Origin: Chrysomallon squamiferum
Taxonomy: Eukaryota; Mollusca; Gastropoda; Neomphalida; Peltospiridae
Assembly: GCA_012295275.1 (NCBI GenBank)
Contig: CM022665.1
Coordinates: 3,546,667-3,610,666 of the forward strand
Direction: 5' to 3'
DNA length: 64,000 bases
Under the pieces are notes generated by a model that was not told the DNA's origin, did not search any database, and saw only the letters and a list, made by a program, of their open reading frames with translations. The translations under genes and the position numbers were made by a program. Below are positions 1-42,155 of this stretch, piece by piece (positions within the stretch are counted from its first letter, which is position 1; every line of letters starts with the position of its first letter).

Positions 1-2402
<2,402 letters not shown>

Positions 2403-9984: not shown

Positions 9985-9999
9985 TATAAATATGAGTCA
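9985..9999 (+). promoter_or_regulatory. TATA box abutting an AP-1-like site
   Basis: TATAAATA (9985-9992) is followed immediately by TGAGTCA (9993-9999), a perfect AP-1 consensus. An Inr-like TCATTCT lies about 25 bp downstream (around 10015), giving a predicted 5'UTR of about 60 nt before the ATG at 10078. AP-1 control would fit an immune effector gene, but a 7-bp match alone is weak evidence. Confidence 0.55.
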
Positions 10000-10077: not shown

Positions 10078-10292
10078 ATGAAGGTAAATTTTTGTTTCAT
10101 TTTCTTAAATTCTTCTTTTTTATTATTTTATTTTATTTTATTTTATTTTTTTTTTCATATATATATGTATTTTAAATTTCAGATTTTTTATACATTTTTT
10201 TGTTTGGTATATGAATTTCTTTTAACTTCAGATAGTTTGTTTACACGTAATAAACACAATTGACCTGTTAGAAACAGATAAAGAAGAGTACG

Positions 10293-10323
<31 letters not shown>

Positions 10324-10602
10324 CAAAGACCATTTTAAATAGATGCTCGCTTTGCATTTCATTAAATATTTAAATATATGGCAAATGGTAAGAATGAATT
10401 AAATTTAAATAAAAATTAATTTAAATTTCAAAACTGTAAAATCAACCAAATGTTTTTGCTGCTTGTTTTTAAATATTTTATTTTATTGTTTTCTTTGAGA
10501 ATGCATGCTTTTATAGGCATAAATGACCTTCAAAAGTTTTCGATCTCCTATTTCTACCATTGATATATTTTCTCAACGGTGTTAAATTTAAATTTAAATT
10601 TA

Positions 10603-10633
<31 letters not shown>

Positions 10634-10661
10634 CTCCTCCCCAAAAAAAAAAAAAAACCGG

Positions 10662-10724
<63 letters not shown>

Positions 10725-10996
10725 ATAATAAAATAAAATAAAATAAAAATAAAAATAAAAATAGCAATACATCAAAAAAATACCAACAAAAAAAATGCAA
10801 TCGAACAGCCTGACATCATAAATACAAATGTATTTTATTTTATCAGAAAAACATGTAATAATAATAATAATAATTATTATTATTATTATTATTATTATTA
10901 TAACAACAACAACTGATAATAATAATCATAATCATAAGATGGAAAAAACGAAGTCTAAACTATCCGAAAAGTTATTAAATAAATGATTTGAACTAC

Positions 10997-11032
<36 letters not shown>

Positions 11033-12720
11033 TTATTTATTTTTTTTTATTTTGCAGGCTGCACTTTTCATTGTTACAGTTTTCCTGATACAGTTTATAA
11101 ATGCACGACCAGTAAGTAACGTTTGCAGCTTTCTGCTTAAATTATTAATGTGTGTTTATTATAATTTTTACAATTATTTTAATTACATATGCAATTAAAA
11201 TTAAGCTGTTTGTGTGTCCTATGAAATTAGTTTTTAGCTGTTTATTGTTGTTTTCTTGTTTTTGGTTTTATTTTATAGTTGTTGTTTTGTTTTTTTGGGG
11301 GGGTTATCGTGTTTTTTGTTTGTTACATTCTTTCTGTTTTTATCCTAACGTTAATACGTATTTATGTAAACAGAAAGTGATGGAATCGTTTGAAACTCCC
11401 GACGGACACATGTACAAAGTAGAGCTGGACAGAAACGGAAAAGAGATCATTTCAAGAGATGACGAAGACGGCGAAATTACTATTGCACTGCACGAACAGG
11501 TAAATGATATTTCAAAAGTTTAATTATTATTATTATTATTATATGTATATATGTATGTATGCATTTATCAGTTTAATAATAGCAGACGACAGATAAAAAA
11601 AAAATAATAATAATAATAAATTAAAAAATAAAAACAAACAAACAAACAAAAATTATAAAACAAAAACCTGCTATTTTATATTTGCAGCGCAAGTGGGTGA
11701 TGATTTTGCCAAGTGACAATGCCACATGTTACGTCATCGATATGACAGAGAAAGAAATCCAGGCAAAAGCTACGGTAAGTCAGTTTATAAATAAATTAAT
11801 AAAGAAAAAAAAAAAAAAACATTTTATTTAATGACGCACTCAACAAATTTAATCTACTTCTGTAAATCGCCGAACAAATAGAGATAAGAAGACAATTGCC
11901 GAGGCCAAACAGTGGTTATTTTGTTTTTTATCTACAAGGGACTTTTCAGAAGCACCTTCCATCAGACGTCAAAACTCAAATCACTGTTTCTAATAAATTC
12001 TTTCTGGGAAAGTGGCTCTAAATAAAGTAGCCAAGAAAATATGACCCAGTGACTAATACTGTGTCACCATGTTACATTTCTACGTCTTCTAAAGTAACAG
12101 TAAAAAATATCATTAACTTTCAGTATCGGTCTAATTATTATTTATTATTATTATTATTATTATGTTGACATTCAGGATCTGGACTTTGAGACAGAAGACT
12201 ATGAAATGAAGACTGTACAGGAAGAGGTTGAAACCGAAGTAAAAGCGACTTGTGAAAAATATGGCGGGAAAGGCAGAGACATAGTGCAACTGGGTCCGAA
12301 AGAACAAACCGACAATGTACCAGCCACATTCCAGGGTAAATTGTAAAATGATTATTTGACAATTATATTGTCATTGTACATTCAAACATTCAGTTAGAAC
12401 AGTCACATACTCATATAAATAAATAAATAGATAAATAAATATATACTCACAAAATAAAAATTAAAAAATTAAAAATAAAAATAAAACATAATAATCACAC
12501 TCGTGCGCACGCATAAATATAAACACAAATGAAAACAAAAATTAAAAATTACTGAAGAATTTTTGTGCAGATATATTTGTTTGATCTTACAGGTGGTAAA
12601 GCTGGACGAATTGTTAAACGTTCGTGGTGTATAGTAAGACGGTGTCGAATCTACAGGATCATAATTCGGGGACGAATCTACGTATACATCCGCTGCTGGT
12701 ACTACATTCGAAGGTGTTGA
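10078..12720 (+). CDS. BRICHOS-domain antimicrobial peptide precursor (arenicin-like)
   Basis: Exons 10078-10083, 11058-11111, 11374-11499, 11688-11774, 12176-12335 and 12593-12720 join into 186 codons plus TGA. The signal peptide ends FINA|RP (residues 1-18). The pro-region is residues 19-62. The BRICHOS-like core has D72, C76 and C117 (SDNATCYVID and ATCEKYGGKGR). A linker follows, then the dibasic RIVKR at 150-154. The predicted mature peptide is residues 155-186: it starts SWCIVRRC, has a central IIIRGRIYV turn and ends RCWYYIRRC. It has nine Arg, no acidic residue and Cys at 3, 8, 25 and 32, suggesting two nested disulfides in a hairpin. In annelid arenicin-type precursors the BRICHOS domain assists folding and secretion of a membrane-active peptide. 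Antimicrobial function is inferred; the splice model and architecture are read directly. All junctions are GT-AG. Confidence 0.9.
10596..10762. repeat. ATAA and poly-A block in intron 1
   Basis: ATAA tandem units are followed by more than 50 nearly pure A and then AAATA/AAAAT units, inside intron 1 of the right BRICHOS gene. Further AAT/ATT and TTTA arrays at 10856-10900 and 11000-11040 lead up to the exon 2 acceptor. Confidence 0.93.
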
Positions 12721-16214: not shown

Positions 16215-16699
16215 TTTTAATATTTAATTTTGATTTAACGAGTTTGTACAGAATTCTTTTAATATAGTTATAGTCCATCAATTTCACATTTCATCTTAAT
16301 AAATTTAAAATGTTAATTTAATCTCCAAATAATGACTTTATATATGTACATATACCACTACTGACACCTTTTTAAATTTAAACATGTTCTTAGTCTTATT
16401 AATTTGCACTAGAAATTAATCTGCATTCGTGCTTTTAATATTTGTGGCTTTGACCTAAGTTAGGCAATACACTGATAATGTTTGTTATACCATCTGTTCA
16501 TTTATACTTGTTAAGCAGACATTCATTTCAATGTGTTTTAAATTTCAGATACTTCACCATTAATGCATCCTTCATTTGATGAATAATAATGATTATCGTA
16601 ACTGGATCTTGTAATTAATTTTCATGGCTCTCACAGCTGCAGCTGTATCAGTAACTACTTTTAGCAGTTCAAGCCTCTGTTTAGCATAGAGCTCACCAG
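12900..16699. other. Intergenic and 5' flank of the hydrolase gene
   Basis: Mostly AT-rich repeats: AAT at 13497-13572, a T run plus TA run at 14128-14180, poly-A at 14721-14746 and AAT/ATAA at 14759-14850. A GC-rich patch sits at 14430-14466. The stretch 15500-15628 has ordinary composition and ends in a good donor (TTGCG|gtaagt). It may be a 5'UTR exon spliced to the ATG exon at 16700, where CACCAG precedes the ATG. It would contain a six-codon upstream ORF (MAVYNR). That exon is a guess. Confidence 0.4.
16119..16214. repeat. (CT)n(CA)n microsatellite
   Basis: A pure CT run of about 84 bp passes into a short CA run. It creates Leu/Ser and Arg/Glu open frames that are not coding. Confidence 0.97.
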
Positions 16700-19679
16700 A
16701 TGACAATGGCTAGCAATTCCGGCAGTACTGAAAATAAAAAATCCTCACAGCAGAAAACTACTTCGATGATGTACAAATTCAGTCCATCGCAGATGCATCG
16801 ACCACAGCTACTTCCTCCAATTGTCTGTTCACGACGACTTTACATACAGATTTCATTCATTCTTACCCTTCTGCTTGTCTTCTTTCTTCTGAGGACATTA
16901 TCCAACATGCGTGTAGTGTTTGTTCATTTTCACATGGAGAGTGACACTGATGGTGAACTCGTTATTCTGCCAGAAAAATTTGCTCAAAACCACGGAGCAC
17001 TTTGTTTGGATGGGTCGCCCCCAGGATTCTATATGAGACATGGTAAGTTTAGCTGAGAATCAAAATATTTTGTGATTCTTTTTAATTTAATTACCTTTTT
17101 ATTTATTTATTTTTTAATCTATTTATTTTTAGGACATCTACAGATACACGATGGATTTTTCAGACTCGGATAAAATCAGGACTGGCGTTTGAACTTCATT
17201 TAAATTAAATGTATTGGTTTTTTTAGTTTGATAATCAGATTGTATTGATTCTGCCCATACTACTAATATTTGTCAATCATTCTGTGTTAATGTATTTCAT
17301 TTAATTTATATTTAATATTTGTTTAGGTTTCAAGCAGTGTATGATTCTTAGGGACATCAGACATGGATGTTTAGTCACTAGTCTGTTGGATTATTGTTAG
17401 GTAACCTCTACTGGTCCAGAAAAAACTGATATGGTTCTGGAAAATCAGTTGTATATCTATATTAAATGTTTGTTTTTTAAATAATTGCAAGAACTAAAAA
17501 CAAATATAGTTCACCACTGACCAAGAAAAAGTAGAAGAGAAGAAGAATGAAATAAATTTTAATAAGAAATAGGTACTTTAGCACTAATTATTGAGATTAC
17601 TGTTTGTCAGTGAATTAACGTAAATCATATTGTTCTGATGATATGGTGCTGTCTTTCTAAATTTTACACTGACCAAGTATTTTAAATTGCTATTATATAA
17701 TATACTAGGTAAGGAAATACATGCACTTTCTTTATTTTTTTAGTTAAGCTGATACTTAAAAAAAACAAAAAAAAACAAAAGAAGTAATAAATAATTATAT
17801 TCTATAATATGGTTACCTTGGCCTTGTATCAGAAATAATTACTTTAGCACTAATTATTGAGATTACTGTTTGTCAGTGAATTAACATGAATCATATTGTT
17901 CATATTGTGAAGTATATTTGTTTGTCACTTTGTATTTAATAAAAGAAACCTAACACATCTTATAGGACTTGCTGTTATTTCGTCCTTATTGCACTTCAGT
18001 TCAATTTCCTTGTAAAGTTGTACGTATGAATTTACAAAGTTGTCAAAGCATAATTATTATCAACAGTCAGTTTACTCATTTGTTTTAAAATACAGATTTT
18101 CTGGATGGGATCAAGGACTTTTATTACTATTTCCAATTTTAATGTAAATTTTAACTTTAGAATGTAACTGTTTTTATTTTATTTGGTTCAGGTTCTGTAT
18201 CTGCTAAAACCAGCTGGATAATTCACCTGCAGTCAGGAGGCTGGTGTATGACTGTTGAGGACTGTTACAGAAGGTAAACATGCATTTTATATTATATAAA
18301 TTTTAAAGTTGAAGAGAAGAAACATATATACCCATTGTCTAGTTACCTTTTTCAAACAACGAAGTATATTGTATATATTTCTGTGTGGTATGGTTTGATG
18401 TATTTTGTGTGCATGTGTCTATGTTTTTTTTTTTTTTTTTTTAAATTACTGCTGAGGATAATTTTGAAAGTTTTAAAAGATATAAATTTTGGCTCTATTG
18501 TCTGCATTTTTGTGTTTTCATTTTCTTTTAATCCGATTGGGATGATTTCTTTATCATTCATATTTGTTCAGACTAACATCTTCATCTTTGAGAAGAGTAG
18601 AAAGTATCTCAGGGTTAAAAACACAGAAATAAAGCATGACTGGATCACTACTCCCTAAGAGGGCTGAGTTATCCAAATGATTCATTAAAGGCTATTATAC
18701 GGCTTTGCTTTTTAAAGGGAAGCTCAAAATAAAATTATCTTGTTGCAAATAACTTAACAAGTAAGAATTGTCCATGGATTGTAAATACCTAGTTTCTTCT
18801 CTTGTTTCATTATTATACTTCATTATGGCCAAACAAAAGTGAATAAAATAGTAACCTAAGTAGCACTACGTCCCTTATGTTGTATGCTAATATTTGTTTT
18901 GTTAGGATCAAGTGGAGCATTATAAACCAATCAAAATATGATTGACACAATCCCCATAATTTATGCATTAAGAATATTTGAAATTGATACCAGTGTATCA
19001 TTTTATAAACCTGATGTGCCTGATGTAACATTACAAATTTAACTGAACAAAGCTAGATTATGGTGCTCTTAATAAATGTGTATCTTACAGTCTGGTTAAT
19101 TAAATTATAGAAGCTACACTTGCCTTGGATCTAGTCTGGCCTGTGAAACATCAGCCCCTTTTGAAGGTGTTCTGTCCAGCAACAGTGGAACAAATCCAGA
19201 CTTTTACACCTGGAATGTTGCCCAGTTTGTATACTGTGATGGAGGATCTTTTGCTGGTAATACACAAATTACTGTTGTCTTAGTACTTTTATTTATATAT
19301 TTCTGTTTATCTATTTATCTATTTATTTATTTATTAAAAATTAATGAGAAACATATTCAAGGAATATATTTTCTCTTTCCAAATTATGTGGTAAATTATT
19401 TTATTTTGAATTCCAGATATTCTTTTCATATTGTGTGTATGTGTGTCTATATACAGGGTGTCCCAGAAGTCACGCACCATGAAGATTTTTATTTAGATAC
19501 AAATGAATAAAATTTTTATTAATAATAATCATAACAAATGCTCAAATTGCTTGCCCTCTGCATTGATACATACTTCAATTCTCTTTATAAAACTGTTTTT
19601 TACTCTGTTGAGGGTTTCGCTACTAATTTATGTGTATCTAAATAAAAATCTTCATGGTGCGTGACTTCTGGGACACCCT

Positions 19680-19717
<38 letters not shown>

Positions 19718-20051
19718 CATTTTTACAGTTGAAATTTCAAGAGTTTTTTATGATTAATATAGATATTACTTTAATATATTTTTTTTAAGGATATAAATAA
19801 AAAGCAGTTTTTTTCAGAAAAAATCCTTAGTTTAATAAGAAGATAATCAAATAGTCATAGATTAAGTCATCTCTCAGTTACATACCTTTTTACCAAATCA
19901 TATCATTTTACTGCAATATTTTTTATACACACAACTCAGATATTTATGTGATAAATTGTTATTATTGGTTTTCTTAATTATTTCCCAAATTATTTTATTT
20001 TGTGTTTTGTTTTATTGTATTTTAATATATTATTAATTTTAAAAAAATGTA

Positions 20052-20109
<58 letters not shown>

Positions 20110-22473
20110 GTATTTATTAATTAATTAATTAATTAATTTATTTATTTATTCATTCAGGTAACAGGTCTGATGTGGTAACATACAGGGGAAAGAAACTGTA
20201 TATGAGAGGGGCACTTATTTTGGAAACTTTGATAGACTATCTGTTAAGGTACACAAACCTGTCAACAGCTGAGCAAGTTTTATTAGTGGGATCATCATGT
20301 GAGTATCACAGTGAGCAAGTGAGTGAAACATTAAGTGTTGTGAAATGCCTGGGACAGTTTAAATGTTAAGATTTGAAACAAAACCAAAACAAAAAATTAT
20401 TGACAGTCTTGCTAGTTGATAATCACCAGTTAAAAATATATGATACTTTATAGGGATAATGAAGATTTTTATTTAGATACAAAATAAAACCAAAAATAAA
20501 AATTATTGAAGTTTTGTACCCTTGGTTATAAAACTGTTTTTTAGTTGGGTTTCGCTATAGTTGATAAATCAAAAATTTCATGGTGCTCTTCTGGGACACC
20601 CTAAATATATATATATATTTTTTTTTTTTGAAATTTTTTTATATATATATCTTTGAACATTCCTTCACTACTAATACAGTGAAAATCTTGCATGTTTTTC
20701 TTTAAAGTTTTATTTTAAAAAATTATTACTTATAAAAGGTGAAAATTTGACATTTTATTACCATTTACATAGCATATGATTTGCTGTGAGAAATACAACT
20801 AATGTAGTAACAACTAGTTATTCACATGAGTGAAAACAAGAAGCTGATAGCAGTCTTTGGAGGGGTTTTGGTTGGGGATATTGACACTGCAGTTAAGGAG
20901 TCTATACGTTATCAAAGCTTTCTATGGGTCATGCATTCAGAATAATATCTTTACATTAATTAAATTCCAGTATATATAGGGTTCTTGACCAGAACATATA
21001 ATTATTAAATTATGTAGATCAAATATGCTAATTTCATTAACAAATCGAAGAAATTTATTTATTTATTCTTTTACATGTAAAACTGAAAAAGTTCTTACTT
21101 TAGAAAATATGAAGATATATTTTATAATGTAAGAAATGTTTACACTAATTAATTATTTTTTCTTTTATAGCTGGGGGTCTGGGTGCCCTGATTCATGCTG
21201 ACAGATTACGTCAAAAACTGCCACGCTCTGTGAAGACCTTGCACGTGCTGCTTGATGGGTCATTATTCTTGGACCAAACTGATGTCAAAGGTCAACACAC
21301 AATGGCTAGCACACTTAAGAATACATTTGATCTACATAGTATAACAGGTAAAGCCATGTTGTATAGAATAAGAAAGATTTAAATTATTATAATTATTATT
21401 ATTATTTTTTTTTATCCTTTTGGTTTTTTCATTATGCAATATTTTCTGAATGTAGATGTGAATACAATTATAGAAAGACTGAAATAGTTATATTTTATAA
21501 TCAATTTTTATAATTTTCAATCAGTAGTTAAATAATATATTTGTAAACAATTTCAAAAATCATTGTAACCTAAGTCAAACTGATGAACATTAGCACAGCA
21601 GTTCCAAGCCTGTTGTCCATGGACCCCTCCAGGTCCACAAAGTTAGTATTAGGTGGTCTCTGAGCTTACTTCAAAATTTTAAGTGTGAAATATATAATTA
21701 CTCACAATAAGACTGATAAAGATAAATTGTTAAAATTTTATATATTGTTAATGGCACATTCAGTTAAACATAAATTTCTGCTGAGAGATGAACCTGGGAA
21801 AAAAAAAAGAGTTTTTCATTAGTTAACAAAATTGTCTTGTCAAGAAGACAGACCTTTCAAAACCTGGAACACATTAGAAAATTAATTTAAATATCTGGGG
21901 TCCTTTGTAGTGGAAAGATGGGGGGAACTTGCATTTAGAAATGTCCTATTTTGTGTTTATCTGTTTAATTTACGAACCATTCATTTTGTAAACAGCTTTC
22001 TCTGTCTCTTGTTCACAGACTGCCAGAGTTTGACTGACTGTACAAAAGAGAAATCATCAAGTGAGAAGTGGAAATGTTTCTTCCCTGGTAACTATCACCG
22101 TCATGTCTTTGTCCCTGCACTATTCTTCAACTCTCTGTATGACACATGGTATGCAGAAAATGCACTGAAAATCTGGTGTGTTAGAAGCGGATCATGTACT
22201 AGTGATGACCTCGCTGCTGTGAATAGCATGAGAGACGCTGTTTTGAGAGAAGGACAGGAAATTGTGCTGTCTGGGAAACATGGAGTTTTCTTAACTTCTT
22301 GTCCTGTTCACACTATGTTGATAACATCAAAGTTTACTTATATAAAAGCAGGCGAGCTGACTCCCCAGAAAGCACTTTCCTTGTGGATTAGAGATAATAC
22401 GGCCGGGTACAACGTGACACAAGTACTGCCTTTAAATCTTTCATGGAATTTATGTAATGTGGAGCTAAAATAA
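16700..22473 (+). CDS. Pectinacetylesterase/Notum-family hydrolase, membrane-anchored
   Basis: Exons 16700-17042, 18192-18273, 19111-19256, 20158-20298, 21171-21347 and 22019-22473 give 447 aa. There is no cleavable signal peptide. Instead a hydrophobic segment at residues 47-64 follows a 46-residue basic/Ser-rich tail, suggesting a type II Golgi or surface protein. The catalytic fold then starts at CLDGSPPGFY. It continues through a GGWC block, LGSS, NPDFYTWN and FVYCDGGSF, with the nucleophile elbow GSSSGG (S237). Family-like Asp (D338 in NSLYDTWY) and His (H394 in SCPVHT) complete a Ser-Asp-His triad. The motif set is closer to plant-type pectinacetylesterases than to Wnt-deacylating Notum, so the substrate (an O-acylated glycan or protein) is unknown. 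Paired cysteines suggest an extracytoplasmic domain. The second Met (residue 3) could also start. Confidence 0.88.
17574..17900 (+). repeat. 61-bp direct duplication
   Basis: Copies at 17574-17634 and 17840-17900 in intron 1 of the hydrolase gene are identical over their first 46 bases and differ at only about two positions overall. It looks like a recent local duplication. No coding content. Confidence 0.85.
19454..19680 (-). mobile_element. Mariner-type MITE with 48-bp perfect inverted repeats
   Basis: A 227-bp element begins CAGGGTGTCCCAGAAGT and ends with its exact reverse complement. The terminal repeats (19454-19501 and 19633-19680) match over 48 bp, and TA lies on both sides, the Tc1/mariner target duplication. 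On the minus strand the interior keeps an open frame ending RIEVCINAEGKQFEHLL and a stop. This looks like the C-terminal tail of a transposase, so the MITE is an internal-deletion derivative of a full-length element. It sits in an intron of the hydrolase gene. Confidence 0.93.
20055..20110. repeat. (ATT)n array
   Basis: A pure ATT run lies about 50 bp upstream of the exon 4 acceptor of the hydrolase gene. AATT and TTTA units follow it and form the polypyrimidine side. Confidence 0.95.
20451..20602 (-). mobile_element. Degraded second copy of the mariner-type MITE
   Basis: In the next intron, a stretch with TAGGG..ATGAAGATTTTTATTT at the left, TATAAAACTGTTTTTTA in the middle and TCATGGTGC..CTTCTGGGACACCCT at the right follows the element at 19454-19680 in order. 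It has multiple deletions and no intact terminal repeat. It is an older relative of the first copy. Confidence 0.8.
21598..21937. mobile_element. Possible hAT-like MITE
   Basis: The left end reads CAGCAGTTCCAAGCC...GGACCCC. The right end reads GGGGTCC...GGGGGAACTTG, roughly inverted, and near-matching octamers (cattagca and catttaga) flank it. The layout resembles hAT termini, but the repeats are imperfect. The right end lies just before the last exon of the hydrolase gene. Confidence 0.3.
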
Positions 22474-34620: not shown

Positions 34621-36982
34621 ATGGATAATGAATCAACTAGTGCATCAAAAATACAAGCAACTTATGGTGAGATTCCTGAAATATAAAATTTGCCAATAGT
34701 TTTGAATACTATACTTGCAATAGCATTAATTTATTTATGTTACAAAAATTGGATACGGCTAAGTCTGTTTTTAATTTAAGTTAAATTTTGTTTATTCTTA
34801 AATGATATAATATGATTTTAAAATATATTGTATATTTTAATATACCAATTTTTGTGTAAATCGTGGTTATATTTCTAGAACATATTATTTTTACTGTTAA
34901 ATTGTTTTACTTGCTTAGTTATGTGGATTGCAGAAATCAAATGTCATTATGTTGATTAACACCAAAACTTTGGTCGAAATTAATCTTTATTAGGTTAATT
35001 TATAAAATGTCTGAGAATACAGACATACTGGTGAATAAAAATATTATATTATAAATAAGTCCAATACCTTTTTATTTGATTTCTGAAGAAAATTTTGTTG
35101 CTTGGATGAAAATTGCTGTAGCTGTGGCAATGATTCGGGCTGCACCTCCTAACATGAAGGGGAGAGAATTTGCTGAAAAATTAGCATTTCTGTATCAACA
35201 CCAACAACAGCAGTGGAAATCCAAATATGAAAAAGCAGCAGAAGAAAACCTTTATCTGAGGCAGCAGATGGTTTTAAGAAATGTACAGGAACTGGCATCA
35301 ACAAGTTCTTCTTGTAAGAATTTGAAAGTTACTTAATTTACCCATATGAACTGATTAGTAAATACCAATAAACTTACAGAACTTTACAGTCTGGGTTTTC
35401 ATTAGATCAGTATCAGTAACGGTTGTTTATTTTTTGTTTTTTTCATATCATATTTCTCATGCAGTATCAAGTTGCAATTTTGGAGAAAAAAAATTGTACA
35501 GGTTCCAGTTTCCCATCTCATACGTCATTCATAAAAATTCCTATCATTGTACCAGTGAATATATTGAGGAAATATTGTCCAAATATTTTGCAAGTTTATT
35601 TACAATACTGGACAATATAAATACATTGAATCAATATTTGATTGCATGTGCAGTTACAGTCTTAAAAATATATTAACAAATGAAAATAGTTTCAAAGTGT
35701 TATTTATAAAAACTCAATAACTTTATATAGAACTTTTTTGTTTGTTTGTTTGTCCCAGGCACTGATTTTGGTGAAAGCCAGGCATTATTTCCAACACCTC
35801 CAAGTTCAGGTCAACCAGAAAGGTCTTCATCCACAGATGTGTTATTCTGTGATGAACTTTACAGAAACACAAAATTTCTCCAAGTTGTTATAAAAATCCA
35901 GAAAACTGCTGGCCAAAGTCATCAACACTCTCTGCTGTATAGTATTGCCTCAAAAACTCTTCACAGGTCTGTTAAAGTCATAAGAAAAATGCTTGTAGAT
36001 GATCAGTCATTCATCTCCATCACCAACATGAAGTTGTCAGTTCAGAGTATTGTTACTCTTGTGGAAGATGACAAGTTCAGTCAGGACACTCAGCTAAATA
36101 TTCAAATCTGTGGAATCGTCAAAGACCTGATTGAAAAGATTATGTCAACTGATGGCTTGGACAAGGTTTTATTTTATTATAAGAGATTTAGATCAAGTCC
36201 AGCCTGCTCATTCTTAGCAAACTATCCAAGTTTATGTCTTTTCAATTATTATTCATCATTAAATAATGTCTCAAGACTGAAAAATATATTTTGTGATCTA
36301 CTTAACAGTTTTAAAAAAATAACCATCAACTGCTTGTAACTTTCTTTTTCAAATACATATTAATACTAAAAAATAGTTTGTACTGGAATAAAGATAGTGA
36401 TTTTAAATTGGCTTTTCACTGATCAAAGACACCATCAGATCCAACATTTTTGTTTTACATTTTTACAGCATTGACTAAATTAATAGAAATTTTCTCTTAA
36501 AAACTATTTTCTGAACCTACATCTTACTATCTCCGTTAAATCAGATATTGTAATTTTTTTTTTAATAAATTAAACTCATATGTCATTTAATACAGGAACC
36601 ACTTCATGTGAAGAAAAATCTTGAAGAACTGCTAGTTTGTTTTGCTGTCACAAAGTCGTGCATTCTCCTGACCAACGTTTTCGAGCTTCTTTTGACCGAG
36701 ATAGAGAAGTTCTGTGGCTCAGTAAGAAAAAGCTGTATAGAAGGAGAACTAGTAGATCTGGAACAATATGAGAATGTGTATCACATCATTTCAGCCCTCC
36801 TAAGATGTGTGCAGGACAGCAAAACAGTGCTAACCACCAACTTTGGAAAGAATATTTGTGATGGTATAGAGGAAAGACTTGATGATGCTCTGCTTTACAT
36901 CTCAGATAAGTATCCACTACTAGCACATTCACTGTGGAGAATTGGGGCAGTGCTTCAAGCTTTCAAGTTAGAAGCATCTTAA
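34621..36982 (+). CDS. MEI4: Meiosis-specific DNA double-strand-break factor MEI4
   Basis: Exons 34621-34666, 35089-35313, 35759-36165 and 36596-36982 join to 354 aa; the human protein has about 385. The N-terminal block (WMKIAVAVAMIRAAPP, ..GREFAEKLAFLY) matches the conserved MEI4 start, followed by a charged helix (KWRS-like QWKSKYEKAAEENLYLRQQ). The middle is helical and diverged. The C-terminal signature YENVYHIISALLR and the ending HSLWRIGAVLQAF match the family's LWRVG tail. MEI4 works with REC114 and IHO1 on meiotic chromosome axes to enable SPO11 breaks. It evolves fast, so recognition rests on the two ends and on domain order. The start codon is the first in-frame Met before a clean donor. 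Confidence 0.88.
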
Positions 36983-40015: not shown

Positions 40016-42155
40016 CATTCTATTAATAATAAAGTTGAATCCGATCATCTGTTTAAAAAAATTAATTTAAATATTATCCAATATCTAAACAAAATATTTT
40101 TTAATATGAACACTATCATAAAATACTTCCAGGAAAAAGTCATTCAGATTCAGTTTCTTGTCTCTAACAAGTGGTGATGCCGTTAGTTAACAGAAATACC
40201 AAACAGCGACCGTCTGAAAGATTTTTTTCTTGGCATTTTTTTGACCACACAAAGAAACAGATCTTAAGCATGGCTTCGATAATGCCAATCACTTCAGTAC
40301 CATATTAAATTCAAAAAACAAATGACAGACCTGAATCGAACTTGACAAAGTCTCTGATTTTGCCAGTTGCTATGTCAACCATGACAGTGTCATTGACTTT
40401 GATCAGAGGATCTGGGTAACGGATTGTACGGCCGTCACTGGTGTGGATCATGGGCACACCTTTGGGTCCTACATGCAGTTGTCTAACACGACTCAGTTTA
40501 TACTGTAAAATATAAAAATCACTTATTATCATCCACAATTCTATGTTTCAAAGGAATGTATTTGTTTTTAATATTTTGTAGAATATAGCCAATTGGCATA
40601 AACAGAAAACAAATAAAGATCTGACCAGTTATTTACTTTCTAGAAATAGAAACAATAAATGTGTACCTTTGCCTCCTCGGGTTTAATCCGATGCACAATA
40701 AATCGACCCTTGACATCATACAGGATGCGGAAATTCTCTGATGTTTTTTCAATCGTGATAACATCTACAAAAAAAAAATCCATTAGTTTGTAATCATTTG
40801 ATGCTTTTAGCAAAATGCCATAAATAATAAAACAGCTTCTAACATGTCTTGTTTTGCAAAACCAAAGGACCTGATAATTAACGGAAACATTTTCCTATAT
40901 GTTTTTTGTAACAAAAGATCACTCTCATAGATAAACAGTTCTGAACTTAAATAACATTAATTGAAACTACTTCTGTAAATGAATTACAAGCCAGAATGAA
41001 TCTAATGGTATTTTTTATTTTTAAAAATATATAGTACATCAATTTAATCATTGAATACTTAGCTTATATTACTATCTAATAATGCACAATACATATGTAC
41101 CCATAAATCCAGTTGGGTAAGTTTTGTCAGTCCTGATTTTGCCATCCACTTTTATGAGTCTCTGATTGACAATCTTTACTACTTCATCGTAAGTAAGAGC
41201 ATACTTCAAACGGTTTCTCAACAGAAGCATCAAGGGCAAACTCTCCCTTAGCTTATGTGGTCCAGTGCTTGGTCGAGGAGCCTTGCAAAACAGTATCATA
41301 ACAATATGAAATACCATTCTCAATTACTAGTCAGTACATAAACACAACTTTTGAAACATTTCTCTGTTAATTACTGAAAGTAAACAACAATTCTACAATG
41401 TGTTTATGGTGCTGATTGTTGCAAATAGTGATAAAAATAAATGAAATTAAAAATATTCTTATGATATAGCTTATTTAAATGGTACATTTGTAGTGATGAA
41501 ATTCCTTTACCAACTTGAAAATTACTTTGTCATTTGAAACATATGTTCCCAAAATGAATATCAAGACATTTTAAGTCTTTACTTAATCACGTTTTGTGTA
41601 AAACTGTTTCAAGTATGGGATCTTACCAGTATATCTTACAAAATGTTACTAATTATTTAGTTATCTGTACTTACAAACACTCCACCTAATTTGTCCAACA
41701 TCCATGACTTTGGTGCTGTTACTCTCTTCAGAATCTTTCGTCTACCTCGATAACCCTGAAATAATATTTGTTTTATTCAGTGCACTATCTTTAACAGACT
41801 TATTGCAGTCTTGCAACCGTAACCTAGCTTTTGCAGATCGTATGGCTAAAATCTTTCTGTAAATTAAATTATTTTAATAAATGTTTAATTATTAAATATC
41901 GGTCAGTACTTCACCAATTCTAAAAACTAACTCAATATCTAAACTATTTTTGTTTCGTAAAAGACAGCAGTCTTGACGTGCACACGTATAATAACTAAAT
42001 TCACTAATACAACACCTAAAAATTTAAAATAACTTCTCGTTTGAGTTCTTTATTATGTTTGTTATGATACTACACTGTTTTATTATTATACCATGTTGTA
42101 TATATTCCACGATCGCAAAAGATTACAAGCGTGCTTTATAAAATCAACGTACCAT
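38384..42155 (-). CDS. RPS4: 40S ribosomal protein S4 (eS4)
   Basis: Exons 42153-42155 (Met only), 41675-41755, 41101-41281, 40667-40764, 40331-40502, 38826-38955 and 38384-38510 join to 263 aa, the same length as human RPS4X. Recognised blocks run in order: [35 protein letters not shown], the S4 RNA-binding region ([13 protein letters not shown]), a KOW-like region, [33 protein letters not shown] and [14 protein letters not shown] near the end. It is a structural protein of the small ribosomal subunit. The first exon carries a single Met codon directly before the donor (ATG|gtacgt), which separates the TOP leader from the coding exons. The N-terminus ([13 protein letters not shown]) differs from the usual MARGPKKHLKRV and has one extra residue. 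The last-but-two intron houses snoRNA-like units. Confidence 0.97.
39133..39266 (-). ncRNA. H/ACA snoRNA-like copy 1 in RPS4 intron
   Basis: Read on the host strand. It starts near ACGGCAGTATCGAAGCCATGC. GCCATGCT pairs with AGTGTGGT as an upper stem, and an internal loop resembles a pseudouridylation pocket. An H box AAAATA follows the GCC closing the first hairpin. A second hairpin region contains CAGACGGTCGCTG and GGCATCACC, and GACAACA at the end places ACA three bases from the 3' end. Length is about 134 nt. The first hairpin's lower stem is short (GGC/GCC) here. The guide target is unknown. Confidence 0.7.
39525..39657 (-). ncRNA. H/ACA snoRNA-like copy 2 in RPS4 intron
   Basis: Nearly identical to copy 1 over the second hairpin (about 70 bp without change through the CTGAAGTGACA end) and diverged in the first. 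The lower stem is GGCA/TGCC, the upper stem GCCATGC/GTGTGGT, the H box AAAATA, and the end GACATGA puts ACA three bases from the 3' end. The similarity to copy 1 suggests recent duplication within the intron. Confidence 0.72.
40156..40289 (-). ncRNA. H/ACA snoRNA-like copy 3 in RPS4 intron
   Basis: The most diverged copy, but with the best hairpin: TTGGCAT pairs with ATGCCAA as a seven-bp lower stem around GAAGCCATGC/GTGTGGTC. The H box is AGAAAA. The second part keeps CAGACGGTCGCTG and GGCATCACC, and the end GACAAGA keeps ACA three bases from the 3' end. What stays constant across all three copies (TATCGAAGCCATGC, GTGTGGTCAAAAA, CAGACGGTCGCTG, GGCATCACC) is likely the functional core. It lies about 40 bp downstream of the exon 5 donor. 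Confidence 0.75.

Follow-up and report, generated by a model that had tools for sequence, protein, structure and literature searches.

The stretch of DNA analysed here, hereafter the window, covers 64,000 nucleotides of the genome of the gastropod Chrysomallon squamiferum (GCA_012295275.1, contig CM022665.1, forward-strand positions 3,546,667 to 3,610,666). Its main feature is a six-exon gene encoding a precursor protein with a cationic, cysteine-containing peptide at the C-terminus (Table 1). The precursor is composed of a hydrophobic signal, an acidic pro-region spread over three exons with one Cys pair, a Lys-Arg site and the 32-residue peptide. All five introns of the gene are of the GT-AG type, and their phases are 0, 0, 0, 0 and 1. 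The first-pass annotation, made from the letters alone, had described a complete six-exon gene with a 186-residue product, a dibasic site and a C-terminal stretch rich in Arg, Cys, aromatic residues and Ile. The coordinates and the length of the product coincided exactly with the spliced model, and all of the exons and splice sites recurred at five other loci. The translation of exon 6 contained the dibasic site and, counted by eye, 9 Arg, 4 Cys, 7 aromatic residues and 8 Ile in the last 32 residues, as had been described.

The signal peptide is divided between exons 1 and 2. We take its cleavage to occur after Ala18, at about position 11105, following the -3,-1 rule; Ala18 is unvarying in the alignment of the eight family proteins described below. 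The sequence around the first exon, CCATCATGAAG/GTAAA, is identical in the five other full copies of the gene. An Asn-Ala-Thr sequon lies immediately before the first conserved cysteine, Cys1 (11718-11726), and an Asn-X-Thr sequon at this place is kept in all six hairpin copies and in neither of the paralogues Q and gB. A scan of the 600 bp upstream of the gene with one pattern gave no Rel/NF-kB-like site.

Table 1. Coordinates of the hairpin-precursor gene, its neighbouring paralogues and the other features of the window (window positions unless a contig or locus is named).
Feature	Position	Strand	Remarks
Whole gene, six exons	10078-12720	+	coding sequence 561 nt including stop; 186-residue product
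TATA box, TATAAATA	9985..9992	+	core-promoter block kept in the 6 full copies (alignment of 5' flanks)
Exon 1	10078..10083	+	Met-Lys only; intron 1 of 974 bp, phase 0
Exon 2	11058..11111	+	remainder of the signal peptide; next intron phase 0
Exon 3	11374..11499	+	first strands of the BRICHOS-like domain; Glu61 at 11494-11496; next intron phase 0
Exon 4	11688..11774	+	Cys1 exon (TCYVIDM); Cys76 at 11727-11729; next intron phase 0
Exon 5	12176..12335	+	Cys2 exon (Cys117 at 12251-12253) and linker; next intron phase 1
Exon 6	12593..12720	+	linker, Lys-Arg (12616-12621), mature peptide, stop
Mature peptide, SWCIVRRCRIYRIIIRGRIYVYIRCWYYIRRC	12622..12717	+	32 residues; C-x4-C-x16-C-x6-C; net charge +9; predicted turn R16-G17
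AATAAA	12862..12867	+	candidate polyadenylation signal
Paralogue Q	125..2402	-	divergently transcribed; exons 2402-2397, 1763-1710, 1170-1045, 628-545, 278-125 (read by eye)
Paralogue gB	L034:5795-8382; C1 ~3537.3-3539.9 kb	-	~17 kb left of the window gene; same six-exon plan
Pectinacetylesterase exons (PF03283)	16685-22470	+	first match just under cut-off
Meiosis-specific protein Mei4 exons (PF13971)	35055-36979	+	
SNORA16-family H/ACA small nucleolar RNA (Rfam RF00190)	40156-40290	-	37.7 bits

The genome was searched over 404.6 Mb in 22 contigs, and the copy numbers are to be read as lower bounds. In a protein search of these contigs, 27 exon matches reached E <= 10. They belong to the window gene, Q and gB on contig C1, and to five full copies (g28, g29, g30, g31 and g33) and one fragment on contig C9, where one full copy is located at 9.17 Mb and the other four are located with the fragment at 8.95-8.99 Mb. 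The window gene and the five full copies on C9 are the six hairpin copies. All of them keep the splice sites, the open frames, the two-codon first exon and the block formed by the TATA box and the 5' untranslated region. Six exons with phases 0, 0, 0, 0 and 1 are found in the six hairpin copies and in gB. In five of the six, all but g33, intron 1 is longer than any other intron, and a dibasic site is present in all seven members with a full readable last exon. The gene is real and more than a product of chance. The family has expanded, and its copies differ in peptide charge.

Some members depart from this plan. The last exon of Q falls outside the window, in sequence reading N; its Met-Lys exon is followed by GCAAGT, and either intron 1 belongs to the rarer GC-AG class or translation starts at another place. 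The protein of gB ends, after Lys-Lys-Arg, in a Cys-free peptide of 22 residues, SIFDMTDKIFIKMGDLINVISF, with a calculated charge of -1.5, and its last-exon piece was predicted as one helix (mean pLDDT, the predicted local distance difference test score, 85.7; single sequence). Two full copies on C9, g28 and g29 (L028 and L029, at 8.948 and 8.959 Mb), keep all of their cysteines; their peptides are near-neutral at +1 and their pro-regions are less acidic. A change of function within the family is possible for these two. Only an exon-6 piece is present at L032 (C9 ~8.986 Mb, minus strand), a locus partly reading N, and it diverges from the family after SWCLGRRCYIYRIKIR; L032 is an apparent pseudo-copy.

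Selection was estimated as the ratio of nonsynonymous to synonymous change (dN/dS). Since the pro-region of the window copy gave 0.24-0.29 against each of the five others, its reading frame is under purifying selection; the constraint was significant for window-g33, the only one of the five pairs tested (Fisher p = 2e-7). It was not significant for the pro-regions of g28-g33 (p 0.12). The 16 signal codons of the window copy gave 1.06-1.46 against the other copies, from few sites. For the mature part, dN/dS was 1.2-1.9 in the six comparisons of g28/g29 with g30/g31/g33, and 0.70, 1.49 and 1.82 within g30/g31/g33. Positive selection on the peptide was considered and is not claimed: the three tested contrasts of the mature part against the pro-region gave p values of 0.17 to 0.40, and the mature part of g28-g33 alone gave p 0.33.

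The six hairpin peptides share the pattern C-x4-C-x16-C-x6-C. It is made of an inner ring, C-x8-G-x7-C followed by Trp, and of an outer Cys pair. The ring is present in all six copies, in three of three arenicins and in neither of the two other worm peptides tested, with the arenicin letters taken from Table 4 of PMC6780910. An AlphaFold2 prediction of the window peptide with a six-row alignment gave two strands, residues 2-15 and 18-31, with a mean pLDDT of 92.5 and a predicted template-modelling score of 0.37. In the predicted register Cys8 is placed opposite Cys25, and Cys3 and Cys32 are two residues out of register when counted from the turn. An outer Cys3-Cys32 bridge would be plausible in this model. 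Foldseek returned 295 matches at E <= 10 and none at E <= 0.001; among the best 50 of the 295, the first was a chain of a bacterial pore-forming toxin (E 1.4) and the second was arenicin-1 (E 1.4, not significant). The 32-residue peptide had no match by sequence in the PDB.

Among the closest parallels are arenicin-1 and -2 of Arenicola marina, which are cationic beta-hairpins with the same 18-residue ring followed by Trp. Their precursor also carries the peptide at the C-terminus, after a signal, an acidic pro-region and a basic site. On the other hand, the snail peptide has 32 residues instead of 21 and an extra outer Cys pair, its host is a gastropod, and its pro-domain is unrecognised by the BRICHOS profile of Pfam. 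The first-pass annotation had likened the gene to arenicin and alvinellacin and had called the mature peptide unfamiliar. The likeness is borne out by the precursor layout and the ring. The unfamiliarity has to be narrowed, because the arenicin-type ring is recognisable and it is the outer Cys pair that comes in addition to it.

The net charge of the mature peptide (K+R-D-E) is +9 in the window copy, +7 in g33, +6 in g30 and g31 and +1 in g28 and g29. The calculated charges of the pro-region and the mature peptide are -10.0 and +8.4 for the window copy, -10.0 and +6.4 for g33, -11.0 and +5.4 for g30, -9.0 and +5.4 for g31, -0.1 and +0.5 for g28, -4.1 and +0.4 for g29, and -2.2 and -1.5 for gB. 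The two charges are inversely correlated (Pearson r -0.90, p 0.005, n=7); Q, whose peptide cannot be read, is not among the seven. When the three close copies were merged, r was -0.90 with p 0.036 (n=5), and the Spearman coefficient was -0.73 with p 0.064; these p values are optimistic because the copies are related. The charge compensation fits an acidic, chaperone-like pro-domain that would mask the cationic hairpin until a furin-type cut.

The BRICHOS-containing gene ITM2B (Bri2) of the same genome provides a further comparison. Its protein, spliced from L036 without the first exon, matched Pfam BRICHOS at 9.7e-14. The two genes have identical intron number and phases, and they share the Cys1 block and Lys-Arg ahead of the C-terminal peptide. 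Their exons are also partitioned alike, into first exon, membrane or signal segment, early strands, Cys1, Cys2, and Lys-Arg with peptide. The distance from the intron preceding the Cys1 exon to Cys1 itself is 13 residues in the window gene and 12 in ITM2B. However, ITM2B is transmembrane and its Pfam BRICHOS match is clear. In the genome-wide search with Pfam BRICHOS, ITM2B was the sole place above the cut-off, one weak place was found besides, and no match fell in the hairpin-precursor family. The weak place, L037 (C13:605891-606076), scored 16.7 bits, below the cut-off, and contains two internal stops; it is situated near the letters KTCFVMPKL and is possibly another BRICHOS gene.

A hidden Markov model (HMM) of the ITM2 BRICHOS region gave 5.9-8.7 bits on all eight pro-regions. 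Plain shuffles scored as high in 2 of 4000 cases (per 500, in the order window, g28, g29, g30, g31, g33, Q and gB: 0,0,0,1,1,0,0,0). Shuffles that kept every Cys in place together with the residue after it did so in 8 of 4000 (same order: 0,1,1,1,3,2,0,0); both kinds control for composition only. Reversed pro-regions reached at most 0.5 bits (six of the eight reported), and none of 40 control open reading frames from the window (34 scored) reached 5.7 bits. Because the copies are related, the eight HMM scores are nearer to three independent tests, namely the hairpin copies, Q and gB. Cys1 was aligned to Cys1 in all eight HMM alignments, and Cys76 and Cys117 of the window protein are unvarying in the eight aligned proteins, a comparison made at the sequence level only. 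A distant BRICHOS membership is suggested because of the gene structure, the order of the cysteines and the weak similarity to ITM2 BRICHOS, and the pro-region would most likely be a much-diverged BRICHOS domain. Other searches added no relative. In a collection of 5.8 billion proteins, searched by a method that requires shared short exact words, the single precursor gave 10 candidates and the eight-row alignment 1454, none of them at E <= 10. The precursor had six PDB matches by sequence, at E 0.28-0.6, all to unrelated proteins. Pfam matches to DUF3332, DUF3117 and others were under their cut-offs and were judged to be chance.

The annelid precursors were compared by their published description and mature peptides. 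The alvinellacin gene is reported to have 6 exons and 5 introns, of which the final one is in phase 1 and the others are in phase 0; capitellacin is reported to have nearly the same splice positions (PMC4002450). The window gene has an equal exon number and phase series and likewise ends in a four-Cys peptide, although the Cys spacing of its peptide differs from both alvinellacin and capitellacin. Alvinellacin is described as a tandem multigene family, with a varying BRICHOS domain and a peptide that hardly changes (PMC5431198). In the snail copies, in contrast, it is the peptide that varies more, although the difference is not significant. Worm BRICHOS precursors are reported to carry hairpins or helices (PMC10745061, PMC6265681). 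The HfBRI precursors of Heteromastus filiformis, known here by description, resemble the snail family in that several related precursors with hairpin and helical peptides occur in one animal; HfBRI-25 has an asymmetric Cys spacing with C1-C4/C2-C3 given as the most probable pairing. They differ in being annelid and in including transmembrane precursors, 5 out of 13 (PMC10745061).

The gastropod setting is supported by ITM2B, which over the length compared is 83% identical to that of Gigantopelta aegis, a peltospirid gastropod, and 36-59% identical to the other 16 matches. We take the nine named ones among these 16 to be molluscs by their genus. An annelid host had been considered and was rejected in view of the similarity to Gigantopelta aegis, and a guess at an AT-rich annelid was likewise dropped. 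The window has a GC content of 27.6%, nine of ten other loci have 27-30% and one has 33%; a separate assembly of Chrysomallon squamiferum is reported at 34.5% (PMC7736800). The genome of this species is described as 15 linkage groups and seven unanchored contigs (PMC7142155). BRICHOS antimicrobial peptides are said to be restricted to polychaetes in two reviews (PMC6780910, PMC9756803). That polychaete origin is not shared by the present precursor, whose host is a gastropod near Gigantopelta. No report of a mollusc BRICHOS antimicrobial peptide was found in the titles and abstract openings listed by searches of open-licence papers, and the words BRICHOS and antimicrobial are absent from the main texts of three peltospirid genome papers.

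The window contains further features. The pectinacetylesterase gene is presumably Notum, and it is followed by exons of Mei4 and by a small nucleolar RNA gene (Table 1). No tRNA was found in a scan of the window. Of 12 families of direct repeats in positions 1-30000, 11 were low-complexity and one was a 74-base pair of copies.

We interpret the window gene as a host-defence gene of a vent gastropod, in which a secreted BRICHOS-like precursor releases a membrane-active cationic hairpin, with a probability of about 0.68. The window peptide itself is probably antimicrobial. During folding and disulfide formation, the acidic BRICHOS-like pro-domain would keep the cationic, aggregation-prone beta-hairpin soluble and charge-neutral. 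A furin-type protease would then cut after Lys-Arg and free the 32-residue peptide. Its core would be the 18-residue arenicin-type ring Cys8-Cys25 around Arg16-Gly17, with the putative Cys3-Cys32 pair closing further out. The freed peptide may act on bacterial membranes, and the copies of differing charge are probably directed at different bacteria, symbionts perhaps among them.

Several observations weigh against this interpretation. The first-pass annotation had placed the product among the BRICHOS precursors, with a BRICHOS-like Cys pair and Asp. However, the Pfam profile (PF04089) matched neither the 186-residue product nor any of its seven relatives at E <= 10 with the HMMER filters on, and hhalign of the family against 17 ITM2 sequences gave P 0.051 and a probability of 1%. 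The lack of a profile match is one half of what the first-pass annotation had named as refuting its proposal; for the other half, which concerns transcripts, the exons and splice sites kept in all six copies serve as a substitute. The invariant Asp of BRICHOS domains is reported at the end of strand 2 (PMC6265681, PMC9714404), and Glu61 of the window protein aligns at this place. The place was reached in four of the eight HMM rows, with Glu in the window copy and g33, Tyr in g30 and Asp in Q; in the MAFFT alignment, read by eye, the column of Glu61 has Glu in the six hairpin copies and Asp in Q and gB. Asp72 lies near the first Cys and not at the invariant position. Thus the Cys pair (Cys76/Cys117) stood and the Asp did not, and the assignment to BRICHOS precursors keeps the layout, the gene structure and the Cys pair on its side and has the profile match and the invariant Asp against it. 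On the side of the peptide, the sequence resembles that of arenicin-1 to a modest degree (by shuffling, p 0.008 in the window copy, or 0.018 with Cys fixed; 0.0065 for g33; 0.04 to 0.115 for the remaining four), and no significant similarity was found to arenicin-3, alvinellacin or nicomicin-1. A charge of +1, as in g28 and g29, is atypical for a membrane-lytic peptide. The mature part of the window copy has a dN/dS of 0.50-0.92 against the five others, and its constraint was not significant in window-g33, the sole pair tested (Fisher p 0.16).

These points lend themselves to other explanations. The precursor might be an unrelated secreted propeptide that converged on the annelid layout. The failure of Pfam in all eight proteins speaks for this, as the same library calls BRICHOS in the host ITM2B and is reported to detect BRICHOS in the pro-regions compared with that of alvinellacin (PMC4002450); the hhalign value, the unconserved Asp and the empty search of 5.8 billion proteins, within its need for shared words, go in the same direction. 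We nevertheless regard convergence as unlikely, with an intron count and phases equal to those of alvinellacin and ITM2B, a Cys1 intron within one residue of that in ITM2B, and three diverged branches that the ITM2 HMM scores higher than almost all of their shuffled versions while keeping Cys1 aligned. The BRICHOS-like precursor might instead release a peptide with a mainly signalling, structural or biomineralising function, just as the C-terminal peptide of Bri2/ITM2B is not mainly antimicrobial. Two of the six copies release near-neutral peptides, the helix-type peptide of gB is slightly anionic, and Chrysomallon squamiferum is known for its mineralised scales (PMC7142155). Such a function is quite unlikely as the main one, since the window peptide at +9, three others at +6 to +7 and the four-Cys hairpin have the profile of the annelid peptides, and the pro-region charge tracks the mature charge. 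That the six pieces do not form one transcript is very improbable. An exon of just two codons would invite this suspicion, but it recurs in six copies together with the splice sites, frames and promoter block, and the pro-region is under purifying selection.

A stronger form of the host-defence interpretation is that the arenicin-like ring is orthologous and that a gene for a hairpin peptide of this type already existed before annelids and molluscs diverged. The geometry and turn of the arenicin ring and the gene plan of alvinellacin point to it. However, it is doubtful, because the peptides resemble each other weakly (p about 0.01 to 0.1), a ring of this geometry could arise by convergence, and the protein database yielded no scoring homologue from other molluscs.

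As a broader and tentative proposal, which we hold at somewhat less than even chance, BRICHOS-type antimicrobial precursors may be an old defence system of lophotrochozoans or of a wider group, sharing with ITM2B its descent from one six-exon gene, and not an annelid invention. In fast-evolving lineages, of which the vent snail would be one, the chaperone domain would then have drifted below profile detection and lost the invariant Asp, with its acidity co-evolving with the charge of its client. If this is true, many such genes would be unannotated in mollusc genomes and could be found by exon phase and Cys pattern. Genes of this kind can escape the standard profile, and intron phases may be of help in their detection. 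The six copies with fixed cysteines and variable, matched charges, together with a helix-bearing neighbour, would offer a natural test of the co-evolution of a BRICHOS chaperone and its client. The peptide builds on the ring of the arenicins with a further, outer Cys pair. The finding would widen a family regarded as polychaete-only to a mollusc that depends, as Alvinella does, on bacterial symbionts at hydrothermal vents.

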